A stretch of 34,055 nucleotides of DNA from Candidatus Yanofskybacteria bacterium RIFCSPHIGHO2_01_FULL_44_17. Lineage in GTDB: Bacteria > Patescibacteriota > Minisyncoccia > 2-02-FULL-40-12 > IGHO2-01-FULL-4-A. Below are positions 2,958 to 33,159 of this stretch, one piece after another. The notes under the pieces were generated by a model. That model did no database searches. It was given only the letters and a program-made list of their open reading frames with translations, and had not been told where the DNA came from. How positions within the stretch are numbered: the stretch's first letter is position 1; the number at the start of each line of letters is the position of its first letter. The stretch lies in contig MGJI01000013.1 of NCBI GenBank assembly GCA_001794195.1, positions 1-34,055 of the forward strand. Reading direction: 5' to 3'. Position numbers and translations under genes: made by a program.

Positions 2958-3566
2958 TCAATTTACTCCATAAAAAACTTTCTTGCCTTGGGCAAGGCGT
3001 TTTATCACTCCTGCCCTTATCAGCTCGCTAAGCTTGCGCTTTAGTGTGCGCTTTGTAATCCCGGAAAATTCAGCAAAAACATCCGTATTTCTGACCTGCC
3101 CGCGGCTGACTACGAATTCTTTAATTTCTTTATGCGTTTCACTAACATTACTTACGGGCATAACAGTGCTTTCAATTCGCACTTTTTTTAAAGCTACGCC
3201 TTCCGGTTTTTTGTATATCTTAAACATCTCAACCCTATCTAAAATTATTGATTCGGCCAGCAATAAATCTCGTTCAAGTAAAAGGGGGGTCACCGAATCG
3301 GCCAAACCGAAATGTTTTAAAATCAAAATTAAATTAAGCAGGTTTTTAATCTCGAAAGTTAGGTTTTTGCTAGCTATACATTGTGCGACATAATTATTTT
3401 TTCTGGACGCTCCCCCATACTTTAAAAACTCGACGTATCTTAGCAGCAACCTTTCTGATGCTTGGTCTAGCAGTCCGACAAAAAAACCGTCGTTAACAAC
3501 GGCGTCCATTTTGGCAATACCTCTAAAACAGCGTGCAAAAATTTTAATAAGGCTCTCCTTTTCCAC
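2958..3566 (-). CDS. Hypothetical protein with C-terminal winged-helix/HTH
   Basis: C-terminus VSRGQVRNTDVFAEFSGITKRTLKRKLSELIRAGVIKRLAQGKKVFYGVN is a winged-helix pattern. Confidence 0.65.
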   Translation of the reverse strand: MEKESLIKIFARCFRGIAKMDAVVNDGFFVGLLDQASERLLLRYVEFLKYGGASRKNNYVAQCIASKNLTFEIKNLLNLILILKHFGLADSVTPLLLERDLLLAESIILDRVEMFKIYKKPEGVALKKVRIESTVMPVSNVSETHKEIKEFVVSRGQVRNTDVFAEFSGITKRTLKRKLSELIRAGVIKRLAQGKKVFYGVN

Positions 3567-3689
3567 ATTTGGGGCTTTTTAATGCCCTCTTATGGCTTAC
3601 TCAATTATTTGCCCCTAGTCAATGCTGGGGAGAGAGTTTCTTCAATGAAAAGTGCTATCGCTATGCTGCATAAGGCCACATACATATGC

Positions 3690-3718
3690 TTGACACCTTT
3701 GATGCTTTTTGCTAGAAT
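3690..3718 (+). promoter_or_regulatory. Sigma70-type promoter upstream of lipoprotein gene
   Basis: TTGACA (3690-3695), 17-nt spacer, extended -10 TGCTAGAAT (TAGAAT 3713-3718). Confidence 0.65.
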
Positions 3719-3754
3719 GTGCATGAGTATTAGAACTTTACCAAGGAGCTGTGT

Positions 3755-4135
3755 ATGCAGAGACATTTGCGCTTAGTCATTGTCATTCTAGCAAGCTTAA
3801 TTACATTACTTTCTGGCTGTGGAAAAGTCTTACCTGAAAATGGTTTTAAACTAGCTGCAGAATATCCTGTGAAAATAAACGTTTCTGTTGATGTTGATTT
3901 CAACCAAAACCCGCAAATTTTTATAAAAGCAAGGGATCTGGAAATAAATAGAGAAGATATGGTTTTAATTCTTAAAGACGCTCTTTTGTCTAACAAGGAT
4001 GGCACTTATGTGATTAAGCTGGATGGCAAAGTATCATTTCCTCTTGGCGGATACATAATAGAGATTTGGAAGGATGGTAAATACGAAAAAATAGTGGATG
4101 AAGCGAGCTTTCGCTCGGCAGAAAATCATAAATAA
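3755..4135 (+). CDS. Putative lipoprotein
   Basis: Signal peptide with lipobox LITLLSGCGK; preceded by a good promoter and followed by a terminator. Confidence 0.7.
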   Translation: MQRHLRLVIVILASLITLLSGCGKVLPENGFKLAAEYPVKINVSVDVDFNQNPQIFIKARDLEINREDMVLILKDALLSNKDGTYVIKLDGKVSFPLGGYIIEIWKDGKYEKIVDEASFRSAENHK

Positions 4136-4142
4136 CTCCCAT

Positions 4143-4164
4143 ATCGGCATTAGCCGATTTTTAT
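4143..4164 (+). terminator. Rho-independent terminator
   Basis: atcggc-atta-gccgat followed by a T-rich tract. Confidence 0.6.
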
Positions 4165-5162
4165 TTTGAAAATAGCTCTCGAGCGCGCTCCCAAAATTCA
4201 GTGTGGCCTTGTTTAGTTTTCATATAATACCACCACTCTACACCCCACAGATATTGAGCATCGAATCCGGTCTTGCTCGCAAAACTTATCATCTCACTAA
4301 ACTTGTCTATGCCCATGCGGTCAAGCAATATTTCTACTGGCGTGCCAACTATCGGTTGTCTCAACCAGGGCTCAGTTGATAGTTCTATCAATACTTTGGG
4401 CTTCTTGCCATAAACAAGGTCTACGAGGTTTTGTTTAATTCTGAAGAATCCTGGGGTGATAGGGTAGCGAAACGGACCTGTTTTCCACCAAACATATAAA
4501 TATGCACTCGAACCAAAAACATCTGTGCGCTTATACGTCTGAAACCACGGATCAAACTCACCGCTTGAAGTAAGTAAAACTTGCCTGGCCTGATCCAACC
4601 CATGAACAAGGTCAATTTCTTTTTGTAAAAATTCTTCATCCAACTCTCCACAAAGCGACCTGCTGAAAAACGCCAGATAAGGCTCATTCTCAACCTGCCA
4701 GTACTTTATATTTTCATAATCCTTATATCTATTAACAACCGTCTCGATATATTTTAGAATCCTTTCTTGTTTTAAGCTGACGGTTGGGCTGGATCGGCTA
4801 ACCCAATCCGGCTCATGGCACTCCGGCCAGCCGGGCAATCGCCGGCCAACAGCTAATATCACTAATGCGCCGCGCCTGCGCGCTTCGTTCATCTGATAAT
4901 CAAGCTCATTGAAATTAAATTTACCCTCTTCGGGCTCAACCATGGGCCAATGCGCCGATAATCTTAAATTTTTTACCTTAAGGTCGTCCAGTATGGCCAG
5001 ATATGTTTTTTTCCAGTCCAATTGCAACTCGTCAGAGTGAAACTTACTGAACGACGCTCCATAAGCAATCTCCTCTGGCAGCGTCCTTAAGGACAAAACG
5101 TAAAAAACGGCCACAATTATAAACACTACCAATAAAAAGTTTTTTAATCCTCGTCTAATCAT
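4161..5162 (-). CDS. Membrane-anchored glycoside hydrolase-like TIM-barrel protein (GH5/GH42-like)
   Basis: N-terminal signal anchor; LRLSAHWPMVEPEEGKFNFNELDYQMNEARRRGALVILAVGRRLPGWP and YWQVENEP (acid/base motif NEP) typical of clan GH-A. Confidence 0.75.
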   Translation of the reverse strand: MIRRGLKNFLLVVFIIVAVFYVLSLRTLPEEIAYGASFSKFHSDELQLDWKKTYLAILDDLKVKNLRLSAHWPMVEPEEGKFNFNELDYQMNEARRRGALVILAVGRRLPGWPECHEPDWVSRSSPTVSLKQERILKYIETVVNRYKDYENIKYWQVENEPYLAFFSRSLCGELDEEFLQKEIDLVHGLDQARQVLLTSSGEFDPWFQTYKRTDVFGSSAYLYVWWKTGPFRYPITPGFFRIKQNLVDLVYGKKPKVLIELSTEPWLRQPIVGTPVEILLDRMGIDKFSEMISFASKTGFDAQYLWGVEWWYYMKTKQGHTEFWERARELFSK

Positions 5163-6040
5163 ATAAAAAGCATGAAAAAACCGACGACAATAAGCATCGT
5201 CGAAACAAACTTATGCAAAAACACGTTGCCTTCATGAACGTTTTCTGAAAAATGTCCTGGTATTTTTTTAGTCAGTATGAAAGCAAAAAGCAAAACAAAG
5301 ACGAACTGCATGCCGCCTATGGCGTTTACTAGCGAAACATCACCCATTCTGATGGCAAGAAGTACGAAAAGAAACGCGAGTCCGGCCAATGCCTTGTTGG
5401 CCACCACCAAAAGCTTAGTTTTCGCCCTTGATTCTTTGAAATTTTTAATTACGGCTGTGAAATTTCCGGGCCACAAAAGAAGCATGAAAGCTCCGGCTAC
5501 ATTAGCCATGCGAGACCAGAAGAATCCGTCCCAAAAAGTTGTCTCACGAAAAATTATTTTCACAAAGACAGAAGATATGCCGAATAGAATTCCGGCCAAA
5601 ATCACATAGCTAGTTGATGACTTGCTGAACCTAAGCCGGGACATGAGAAACATGCCGGCAACTAAAAATACAAAACCGATTAAGAAGTTGCCAGGAAGGG
5701 CGTCTTTTAATAGCCACAGGCTAAAAAGAAAGGTGGACAGGGCAGAAACCGCACCCATCACCGGGGCGACATCGGAAGCATCAGAAATTTTTAAAGATTT
5801 GTACAAAAATAAAATAGAGAAAATGTAGGTCAGCGCGATCACAAATGATAGCTCAATCACCCTAAAAGTAGGCCAGGAAACTAATGGAAAATAGACTACA
5901 ACCGCGCCAGACATTATGCCAACATAAAAAGCATAAACAACCGGACGAGAAACGGCCTTTGAAGAAACCAAAAACTTGTCCAGCAAAATAACCAGACCGC
6001 TTAAAACCTGTGCGAATAGGGCTAAATATATCCAGCTCAT
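5159..6040 (-). CDS. EamA/DMT-superfamily transporter
   Basis: About 10 TM segments, SDASDVAPVMGAVSALSTFLFSLWLLKDALPGNFLIGFVFLVAGMFLM; 4-bp overlaps with both neighbours. Confidence 0.75.
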   Translation of the reverse strand: MSWIYLALFAQVLSGLVILLDKFLVSSKAVSRPVVYAFYVGIMSGAVVVYFPLVSWPTFRVIELSFVIALTYIFSILFLYKSLKISDASDVAPVMGAVSALSTFLFSLWLLKDALPGNFLIGFVFLVAGMFLMSRLRFSKSSTSYVILAGILFGISSVFVKIIFRETTFWDGFFWSRMANVAGAFMLLLWPGNFTAVIKNFKESRAKTKLLVVANKALAGLAFLFVLLAIRMGDVSLVNAIGGMQFVFVLLFAFILTKKIPGHFSENVHEGNVFLHKFVSTMLIVVGFFMLFI

Positions 6041-7299
6041 ATGGAATTACTTTCGCATATCTTTTTATACTCGTAGGCGGATGGACGTATCTTACGCTCG
6101 AGCGTGTCGTAATTCATTTCCACAAGACCGAATCGCGGATCAAAACCGTGCGCCCATTCAAAGTTGTCTAAAAGCGACCAATAAAAGTATCCACGAACAT
6201 CAACGCCGTCATTTACCCCGTTAGAAGTAGCCTCGCCGAGGTCCTTTGGACTCACGCCAGAGGCGTGAGCGAGACTTCTAACGGGGTGAATGGCCCGCAG
6301 AACCCATTGCAAATGCTCTTTTATGAACTTGGCCCTTTTCGTATCCACGGCATCAGCTAGACCATTTTCGGTGATATAGATCGGCTTTGAGTATTTTTTG
6401 AGCTCAATCAGCACATTATAAATACCTTTCGGGTAAATATCCCAGCCCATGTCGTTTTTTTCGTATTTCTCTTTATCGCCGAATTTGCGATGAAAATAAT
6501 AATTCAAACCGATAAAGTCTTGCTTTATGCTTTTTAAAAAATGGTGATTCCAAAACCAAATCATAAATCTTGACAGAAGCCAATTAAGTGGGTTCTTATT
6601 AGATTCAAAGTTGATATTGTGCTTGGCTACTCCAATATTTAAATTTGGATTGACGGCTTTGATTTTTTTATATGCTACATTGTGCGACATGATTAATTTG
6701 CTTACGACTCGCAGCCACGAAATAAGATTCTTTTTAAATGGGGGCCAATTACCCTTCAAGTAGCCGTGGCTTGAAAAAACCAGCGGTTCATTTATCGTTA
6801 TCCAAAATTTAGCACTATCCCCTAGCCCTTCAACCACATGGCCACAATAGCGGCCAAATATTTCATGACTATCTCTAGCCAACCAACTCCCCTTTTTTAC
6901 AAACCACAAGGGCAACGTCCAATGATACAGCGTTACGAAGGGCTCCAGCCCCCTGTCTCGCAATGCCTGTAGCACTTTTCGATAATGCTCGATTGCCACT
7001 TCATCGAACTTCCCCTCCTCCGGCTCCACGCGCGCCCATTCAATTGAAAAACGATGTGCATTCTGGCTCAGTGATTTCGCAATATCAAAATCCTCCTCGT
7101 ACCGAATGTAGTGATCGCAAGCCCTGCCAGCTGCTGGCACACGTCCATCGCGTGCGGCTTGAGCCCAGTCATTGTTTTCTATACCTCCCTCTACCTGGTA
7201 GCTTGCGGTTGCGCTGCCCCACACAAAACCATTAGGAAAATATTTTTTATTTTCTAAATCTTCCACATTAAAATTATAACACACCTGACGAGCCACCAC
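6037..7299 (-). CDS. Family 1 glycosyl hydrolase (beta-glucosidase-like) with a palindrome-encoded in-frame insertion; start codon uncertain
   Basis: KKYFPNGFVWGSATASYQVEGG, TINEP, YITENGLAD, GYFYWSLLDNFEWAHGFDPRFGLV are GH1 signatures. Upstream in-frame sequence contains TATAAT, so translation could begin at an internal GTG (GTGGAAGAT). Confidence 0.92.
   Translation of the reverse strand: MVARQVCYNFNVEDLENKKYFPNGFVWGSATASYQVEGGIENNDWAQAARDGRVPAAGRACDHYIRYEEDFDIAKSLSQNAHRFSIEWARVEPEEGKFDEVAIEHYRKVLQALRDRGLEPFVTLYHWTLPLWFVKKGSWLARDSHEIFGRYCGHVVEGLGDSAKFWITINEPLVFSSHGYLKGNWPPFKKNLISWLRVVSKLIMSHNVAYKKIKAVNPNLNIGVAKHNINFESNKNPLNWLLSRFMIWFWNHHFLKSIKQDFIGLNYYFHRKFGDKEKYEKNDMGWDIYPKGIYNVLIELKKYSKPIYITENGLADAVDTKRAKFIKEHLQWVLRAIHPVRSLAHASGVSPKDLGEATSNGVNDGVDVRGYFYWSLLDNFEWAHGFDPRFGLVEMNYDTLERKIRPSAYEYKKICESNSI
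6211..6291. repeat. Compound palindromic element inside GH1 coding sequence (RPE-like)
   Basis: Arms 6211-6228 atttaccccgttagaagt and 6274-6291 acttctaacggggtgaat (17/18 complementary); inner hairpin 6251-6269 ctcacgcc-aga-ggcgtgag and smaller stems cctcg-c-cgagg, gtcc-ttt-ggac. Encodes HPVRSLAHASGVSPKDLGEATSNGVN. Confidence 0.85.
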
Positions 7300-12014: not shown

Positions 12015-12060
12015 TCCAATAACATTCTCACATTCTTGAGAATGTGAGAATGTTATTGGA
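12015..12060. repeat. Perfect 22-bp hairpin between msrA and msrB
   Basis: tccaataacattctcacattct-tg-agaatgtgagaatgttattgga. Confidence 0.9.
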
Positions 12061-12684: not shown

Positions 12685-13419
12685 CTACGTGGTCGGGGTA
12701 GCTGTCGGAGTAGGAGTTTCTGTCGGAGTAGCGGTAGGTGTCGGCGTTGTGCTTGGAGTTGCTGTCGGAGTTGCTGTCGGAGTTGCTGTCGGAGTTGGTG
12801 GCATGCTTGGACTCACAGATGGTGATACTGATGGCGTTGGAGTTCTTAAACATTTTGGGTGAATGACAAGCATGTTCGGTTTGCCCAGTTGTTTAAGAGC
12901 ATTGAATATACCCTTTTCTGCGGCAGCCTTTGCTGTCGGACTCATACCGTCGTAGGCTTTTTGGATTGCCTCCCTTGCTTCGGTGGCGCCAACCGTTGCT
13001 TTGCAAGCTTCTTGATCCGGCAAGGTTGATACCCAAGCCAATAAGTTAGCTAGAGCTGAATCTATAAGATTCAGGTAGCTCTGTTTTTCTGCATCTGTTA
13101 AGATACCGGGAGCTCTCTGGGCTTCTTCATATGATTTAACAGCCTTAAATAATGCACCGTAATATCTCATTTCCTGTGAATTCCTGAAATCTCTTAAAAC
13201 ATCTTTCAAATCACGACCGAGATGAAAGCCTCTGCCGCCAGCATCAGCCGGACGATGGAAAACAGCTTGATACAATTCATCCAGCGTCTCGCCATCAACT
13301 GCCGTATTGCTTTCGGCAAAAACATTGGTGCTGTCTTTGCCTACCCAAAAACCAAACGCCACACCGACCGTAAGAACGGCTATCGCCATCCCAACAGCCA
13401 ACTTCTTAGATATGCTCAT
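12685..13419 (-). CDS. Secreted protein with DUF4214-like segment and Pro/Thr repeat C-terminal tail
   Basis: Signal anchor; LDELYQAVFHRPADAGGRGFHLGRDLKDVLRDFRNSQEM; tail SVSPSVSPSMPPTPTATPTATPTATPSTTPTPTATPTETPTPTATPTT. Confidence 0.7.
   Translation of the reverse strand: MSISKKLAVGMAIAVLTVGVAFGFWVGKDSTNVFAESNTAVDGETLDELYQAVFHRPADAGGRGFHLGRDLKDVLRDFRNSQEMRYYGALFKAVKSYEEAQRAPGILTDAEKQSYLNLIDSALANLLAWVSTLPDQEACKATVGATEAREAIQKAYDGMSPTAKAAAEKGIFNALKQLGKPNMLVIHPKCLRTPTPSVSPSVSPSMPPTPTATPTATPTATPSTTPTPTATPTETPTPTATPTT
12690..12845. repeat. Low-complexity 6/12-bp tandem repeats encoding the PT-rich tail
   Basis: Repeated gctgtcggagtt/gtcggagta units. Confidence 0.8.
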
Positions 13420-26285: not shown

Positions 26286-26534
26286 CTAACCCACTACGTT
26301 TTTAGTTAAATTTAACTTTTTCTCTCTACGCCAACTTTTTATTTCGACTTCCCTCTTTTGGGCTTGGCTTCTTGTGTCAAATTGTTCGGTATATAAAACT
26401 CTTTCTACTTTCTTTGATCTGGTATAGGCACCTCCCTTACCAGAACTATGCTCCCTAAATCTGCGTTCGATATCAGTCGTTATGCCTGTATAAAGAGTTT
26501 TGTCCCTACACTCTATTAAATAAACGTAATACAT
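26286..26534 (-). CDS. GIY-YIG nuclease-domain protein
   Basis: MYYVYLIECRDKTLYTGITTDIERRFREHSSGKGGAYTR. Confidence 0.93.
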   Translation of the reverse strand: MYYVYLIECRDKTLYTGITTDIERRFREHSSGKGGAYTRSKKVERVLYTEQFDTRSQAQKREVEIKSWRREKKLNLTKNVVG

Positions 26535-26594
26535 AAAGACTCTAGGAGCACTTCAGGCTGCTGCCTTCAGTACTTCCTCACCTTAGTTCGTCAG

Positions 26595-26665
26595 CTGCGG
26601 GACTTGGACTTGAACCAAGATACCGTGCTTCAGAGGCACGTGTCCTACCATTAGACGATCCCGCA
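26595..26665 (-). tRNA. tRNA-Gln (CUG)
   Basis: TGCGGGATCGTCTAATGGTAGGACACGTGCCTCTGAAGCACGGTATCTTGGTTCAAGTCCAAGTCCCGCAG; U1-A72 and G73 as in tRNA-Gln; anticodon loop CTCTGAA. CCA not encoded. Confidence 0.9.
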
Positions 26666-33117: not shown

Positions 33118-33159
33118 AAATCAAAAAGCGTCCGCCGCCTGGCGGACGCTTTTTGATTT
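33118..33159. terminator. Bidirectional 19-bp terminator hairpin
   Basis: aaatcaaaaagcgtccgcc-gcct-ggcggacgctttttgattt. Confidence 0.85.

Follow-up and report, generated by a model that had tools for sequence, protein, structure and literature searches.

Among the known systems that resemble the element analyzed here are the Rickettsia palindromic elements (RPEs), which are described as about 150 bp long and forming ten families (PMC10969869), and the GIY-YIG insertions in rRNA genes of CPR bacteria, which match no intron and seemingly do not spread by homing (PMC11270868). A search of the open literature, with preprints and most subscription journals outside its scope, found no description of GIY-YIG transposons or of CPR palindromic elements. 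To our knowledge, the prokaryotic transposons described so far are run by enzymes of the DDE, HUH, tyrosine, serine or Cas1 type. Here we describe a palindrome in a 34,055-nt stretch of Candidatus Yanofskybacteria bacterium RIFCSPHIGHO2_01_FULL_44_17 (contig MGJI01000013.1; "the window") that is probably a MITE of a family whose autonomous members of about 275 bp encode a single-domain GIY-YIG nuclease that would mobilize it.

The palindrome in the GH1 gene

The host gene of the palindrome encodes a GH1 beta-glycosidase of 420 aa (window 6037-7299, minus strand), in which the insert comprises residues 338-362. The core element, supported by folding and by a family alignment with covariation, is 71 nt long (6216-6286, minus strand) and has the form CCCCGTTAGAAGT ... 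ACTTCTAACGGGG, with the 13-bp terminal arm CCCCGTTAGAAGT at 6216-6228 (plus strand), its inverted copy at 6274-6286 (minus strand), and an interior made up of an inner stem (CTCGC/GCGAG) and two hairpins. Together with its flanking 4 nt it encodes HPVRSLAHASGVSPKDLGEATSNGV. A sequence-only reading of the window had described a compound palindrome lying in frame between intact GH1 motifs, and both parts of that description were confirmed: the 19-nt arms including flanks (6210-6228 and 6274-6292) are 95% complementary, the region 6190-6310 folds at -57 kcal/mol (z = -6.2 versus shuffles, with none of 200 shuffles as good), and the ORF runs across the palindrome without a stop codon while the GH1 motifs (PF00232) resume on either side of it.

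Comparison of the GH1 protein with 31 genomes (its own and 30 relatives) revealed orthologs without the insert in 14 relatives, the matches breaking at residues 337/338 and restarting at 361/363, and the solved Pyrococcus GH1 structure 1vff, which also lacks the insert, breaks in the alignment at the same place. Both congeners that possess the gene have the empty site GC. ATT CAT GA. GG. (Ala-Ile-His-Asp-Gly). This empty site and the ortholog breaks together define a net insertion of 75 nt (71 + 4), or 25 residues, into the target TTCA, so that the proposed in-frame insertion stands while its earlier estimate of ~26 residues is corrected. From general knowledge of the GH1 fold, the insert is expected in the alpha7-beta8 loop, remote from the active site. 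The target 4-mer is found at 6287-6290 (TTCA on the minus strand, TGAA on the plus strand) and matches the empty site ATT CAT of the congeners. The opposite flanking 4-mer at 6212-6215 reads TAAA on the minus strand (TTTA on the plus strand) and thus differs from it; there is no second TTCA.

Other strong inverted repeats occur in the window at 2421-2489 and 33118-33159, as well as at 12015-12060, where the perfect 22-bp arms of an inverted repeat enclose a 2-nt loop between msrB-like and msrA-like genes.

Dispersal, target duplications and structure of the family

The host genome, 674 kb in 31 contigs, contains the 9-bp arm core CCCGTTAGA at 42 sites, compared with 4 sites of a reversed control; almost all of the 42 are arranged as inverted pairs. 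The elements bounded by these arms range from 47 to 275 nt and differ in their interiors. The exact 13-mer arm was present in 78 of the 286 genomes of the class, representing 70 genera. The short non-autonomous elements have 13-bp arms and measure 38-140 nt; only three phage or viral contigs were found to carry them. Perfect 4-bp target duplications flank 84 of 162 distinct elements, where about 0.6 would be expected by chance, and their consensus is YNNR, the first base being a pyrimidine in 167 of 168 strand-counts. One nested pair consists of an inner element with a CTAG duplication inside an outer element with a TGCG duplication. The structure of the 71-nt form is supported by covariation at 8 pairs, with 27 cells changed on both sides and none of 500 shuffles scoring as high.

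About one third of the elements, the GH1 copy among them, are flanked by unlike 4-mers, often TTYA..TRAA or CTTG..TGAA, a pattern that simple staggered cutting fails to explain. Outer duplications around such copies were looked for and none were seen. For the GH1 copy the TTCA side is the target, and the other side may stem from carry-over of a donor flank or from templated repair of the near-palindrome.

The GH1 palindrome shares the features of a MITE, being a short element with terminal inverted repeats (TIRs), belonging to a family with 4-bp duplications (TTCA/TAAA at the GH1 copy itself) and having its ends in common with a longer element. Judged by its sequence, it is one copy of a widespread family of mobile palindromes. 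Among the other models considered, IS200/RAYT was ruled out by target duplications that vary in sequence, and integron attC sites were ruled out by reasoning, since the arms follow each other the opposite way round from those of attC and target duplications exist. A tRNA-like gene was observed between the palindromic arms CCCCGTTACAAA...TTTGTAACGGGG (L025 1501-1611, corresponding to 12904-13014 of host contig C20).

In-frame residence in protein genes

When the GH1 protein was compared with relatives, the insert peptide alone was matched in many non-GH1 frames. The 71-nt element resides within genes for SecA, GyrA, an RluD-like pseudouridine synthase, an NDH-2-like oxidoreductase, a glycosyltransferase and others, and the target duplications of these coding copies are mostly perfect. 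In the RluD-like gene, one genome (G003) carries tandem and nested elements where another (G002) has a single element at the same site. Depending on frame, the element reads PVRS...TSNG in either orientation, or TPLE...LLTG. PVRS...TSNGV insertions, of a kind that the sequence-only reading had suggested for other CPR proteins, are indeed present in further Patescibacteria proteins, and its proposal of a mobile palindromic element is borne out by copies in unrelated genes and spacers of both the host genome and its relatives. Of the two outcomes it had named in advance as speaking against the proposal, neither was observed: close GH1 homologs from distant phyla with the insert residues but without the palindrome were not encountered, and other copies of the arms are plentiful.

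An ordinary GH1 indel, or a structural RNA or terminator that is palindromic by accident, is an exceedingly improbable explanation in view of this dispersal, the duplications, the empty sites and the copies in essential coding genes, even though intergenic copies could conceivably serve as terminators or processing sites; Rfam returned no family match at the palindrome copies.

In the host genome, length plus 4 was divisible by three for all ten clear coding insertions, three of which are pilin insertions, and for none of the eight intergenic ones (Fisher p = 2e-5). Such a bias is expected from the survival of harmless insertions, and the suggestion that the element was selected to be translatable is only partly upheld. 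Two of the three frames of the arms are free of stop codons. What renders the element unusually tolerable is its length of 71 nt, which a 4-bp duplication brings to 25 codons, together with frames that stay open in either orientation.

The identification of the palindrome as an RPE, a self-spreading coding palindrome of the Rickettsia type, held for its behavior and is unsupported as to membership. Like RPEs, it is palindromic and found in frame in unrelated genes (PMC10969869), but its own 13-bp arms, the fixed 4-bp YNNR duplication and a candidate autonomous GIY-YIG partner set it apart from RPEs as these are described, and we regard an RPE origin as very improbable. The insert peptide matched no Pfam or NCBIfam model, libraries in which the presence of RPE models is uncertain.

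Two of the coding regions displayed additional features. The NDH-2-like oxidoreductase region was struck by two different family elements (L148 in G034 and L032 on host contig C7), which suggests a tolerant loop, and the GyrA that bears the palindrome in its C-terminal domain (L153, G003 contig C6, ORF 3406-7095) also contains an intein (PF14890).

Longer elements encoding a GIY-YIG nuclease

Elements of about 275 bp with the same arms and 4-bp duplications each encode one GIY-YIG nuclease of about 86 aa (PF01541, E = 8e-16) and were found at 67 distinct loci. In every longer element found, this nuclease was the only gene enclosed by the arms. Three 275-bp copies with the same arms are located in a prepilin cluster on host contig C27 (7679-7953, 9532-9806 and 10290-10564; L034), where the GIY-YIG ORF forms an in-frame fusion with pilin genes at their prepilin site (GFTPLE...LPLTGFTLIE) and the element flanks are TTTA/TTCA, with one mismatch. 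These copies sit exactly at the prepilin cleavage site, and cleavage at G|F would free the nuclease from the pilin. A gapped pattern modeled on the exact 275-bp element matched only its own genome within the order searched, and relatives were located by protein similarity instead of the DNA pattern. Close relatives of the 86-aa protein across the phylum are mostly bordered by the same arms; a genome-wide scan detected perfect 12-bp arms in Patescibacteria, Omnitrophota, Planctomycetota, Syntrophaceae and Thermodesulfovibrionia, and other lineages have variant arms.

Invariant residues of the aligned nucleases include Y5, Y16, G18, R26 and E62 among others, and thereby the active-site Tyr, Arg and Glu. 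The AlphaFold model of the protein (pLDDT 90.5) had UPF0213 BH0048 as its best Foldseek match among solved structures, followed by Slx1-Slx4 and I-TevI. By its motifs, the conserved Arg and Glu and the predicted fold, the protein is a member of the GIY-YIG superfamily, and it presumably is catalytically active.

Nuclease and arm types are paired. In a nuclease tree built without the TIR-encoded C-terminus, the CCCGTTAGA arm type requires 17 changes versus 55 when shuffled (0 of 500 shuffles), a contrast inflated by near-copies. Two genomes (G450 and G361), in which no CCCGTTAGA pairs were detected, harbor GIY-YIG elements with the variant arms CCCTGTTAAATA together with short palindromes that have the same variant arms and 4-bp flanks, TGAA/TGAA and TCAA/TCAA among them. 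In G361, two of the short elements also have subterminal sequence in common with the nuclease-encoding element, and they look as expected for deletion derivatives of it. Closer GIY-YIG relatives are found in MITE-rich than in MITE-free genomes (p = 9e-6, by a statistic that ignores phylogeny), and some MITE-rich genomes have only distant GIY-YIG relatives.

The ends of the nuclease elements are fitted to their surroundings. Among the 67 distinct A-type elements there are 50 whose nuclease ORF reaches the last element base (...SLTG) and has a stop codon that starts in the target flank. The last element base and a flanking TG form ATG or GTG in 46 of 77 elements, and in 37 of these 46 the junction start codon is followed by an open frame of 80 aa or more, or by one that extends to the end of the examined DNA, compared with none in the other two frames. 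The junction ORFs that were checked encode Fmt, TsaD, an ExoIII-type nuclease, a nucleotidyltransferase, a YchF-like GTPase and a histidine phosphatase, and in most of these proteins a Pfam domain begins at or near residue 1. The junction ORFs indicate that the nuclease elements sit on host start codons, restore them and overlap stop with start (NTGA), an overlap that may couple translation.

DDE transposases typically act on terminal inverted repeats and leave a duplication of fixed length, as the 4-bp one is here. The MITEs could accordingly be moved by a DDE or other transposase encoded elsewhere, with the GIY-YIG gene as a passenger or a second parasite, and the many GIY-YIG relatives without such arms, which are common in the same genomes and often lie beside tRNAs, also speak for this reading. 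It nevertheless appears unlikely, given that every longer element found with these arms encodes a GIY-YIG protein only, that variant arms accompany variant nucleases and matching MITEs, and that the nuclease ORF so often ends exactly at the element boundary. A DDE insertion sequence was rejected on account of the GIY-YIG protein (PF01541) being the only one encoded between the arms, and REP/RAYT or IS200/IS605 elements (HUH Y1, no target duplication) because duplications are present and the protein is GIY-YIG. The many unrelated target sites with a degenerate YNNR, instead of one allelic site, excluded a GIY-YIG homing endonuclease.

A stand-alone GIY-YIG gene of a second kind, without CCCGTTAGA arms, lies in the window (26310-26534, minus strand) and adjoins tRNA-Gln (26594-26665); contig C21 (L063) and several relatives likewise have GIY-YIG genes amid tRNAs and tRNA fragments. 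Lacking such arms, the genes at 26310-26534 and on C21 were not counted as family members; the tRNA-adjacent genes may constitute another mobile GIY-YIG lineage that uses tRNA genes. More distant GIY-YIG genes (L269, L272, L276, L277, L301, L303 and L308) are bordered by perfect 12-bp arms of a quite different sequence, such as CCCCCACACTTA and CCTCACCCAGAA, and hint at a wider superfamily.

Proposed mechanism and comparison with known systems

The arms, duplications, empty sites, nesting, dispersal, in-frame residence, GIY-YIG-only longer form, matching of arms and nucleases and placement on start codons are read directly from the DNA. We propose that the nuclease, whose fold resembles that of UPF0213 and Slx1, enzymes of branched DNA, would recognize the folded arms, cut the element as well as a YNNR target with a 4-nt stagger, and move its own element while mobilizing the short palindromes in trans. 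Short copies would persist in genes because 71 + 4 nt amount to 25 codons and two of the three arm frames are stop-free, and autonomous copies because their ORF ends on the last base, borrows a stop codon from the target and restores an ATG or GTG, or is fused to a host protein as in the prepilins. It is also likely that these elements represent a new class of DNA transposon with the 86-residue stand-alone GIY-YIG nuclease as the sole transposition protein.

If this is correct, an element of about 275 bp would rank among the smallest autonomous transposons, GIY-YIG would be added to the enzyme classes of transposons, and the element would be a host-sparing one that keeps frames, borrows stops and restores starts while seeding translatable palindromes into proteins of Patescibacteria, Omnitrophota and other phyla. 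It would also offer a testable mechanism for RPE-like coding palindromes, whose mobilizer is a long-standing gap. The family illustrates how compact genomes take up mobile DNA at start codons and within essential genes (SecA, GyrA) with function kept. It also accounts for the odd peptides PVRS...TSNGV, TPLE...LTG and GFTPLE...LTGFTLIE, which occur in many predicted proteins of uncultivated bacteria and have consequences for their annotation, for alignments and for structure prediction.

With RPEs, the family shares a palindromic, mobile-looking nature and in-frame residence in unrelated and core genes, where it is tolerated as an extra peptide. It differs from RPEs, known to us by description, in its arms (CCCCGTTAGARRT), YNNR duplication, length of 38-140 nt, occurrence in several phyla and GIY-YIG partner. 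IS-derived MITEs (Correia/NEMIS, ERIC, RUP) are likewise short and non-coding, with TIRs, a target duplication and ends in common with an autonomous element, whereas the partner here is a GIY-YIG nuclease and not a DDE enzyme, has no stop codon of its own and is placed on host start codons. The REP/RAYT system similarly combines palindromic repeats with related elements that encode a small nuclease of one domain, but RAYT is a HUH tyrosine transposase acting with GTAG-tagged hairpins, in contrast to the GIY-YIG protein and variable 4-bp duplications seen here. I-TevI, phage Seg, UPF0213/YhbQ and Slx1 have the GIY-YIG fold in common with the nuclease; unlike GIY-YIG homing endonucleases, it is linked neither to an intron or intein nor to a fixed homing site, but to a transposon-like element with TIRs and a degenerate YNNR target. 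The GIY-YIG insertions in CPR rRNA genes, described without terminal repeats or mobility (PMC11270868), may be the same elements as those reported here.
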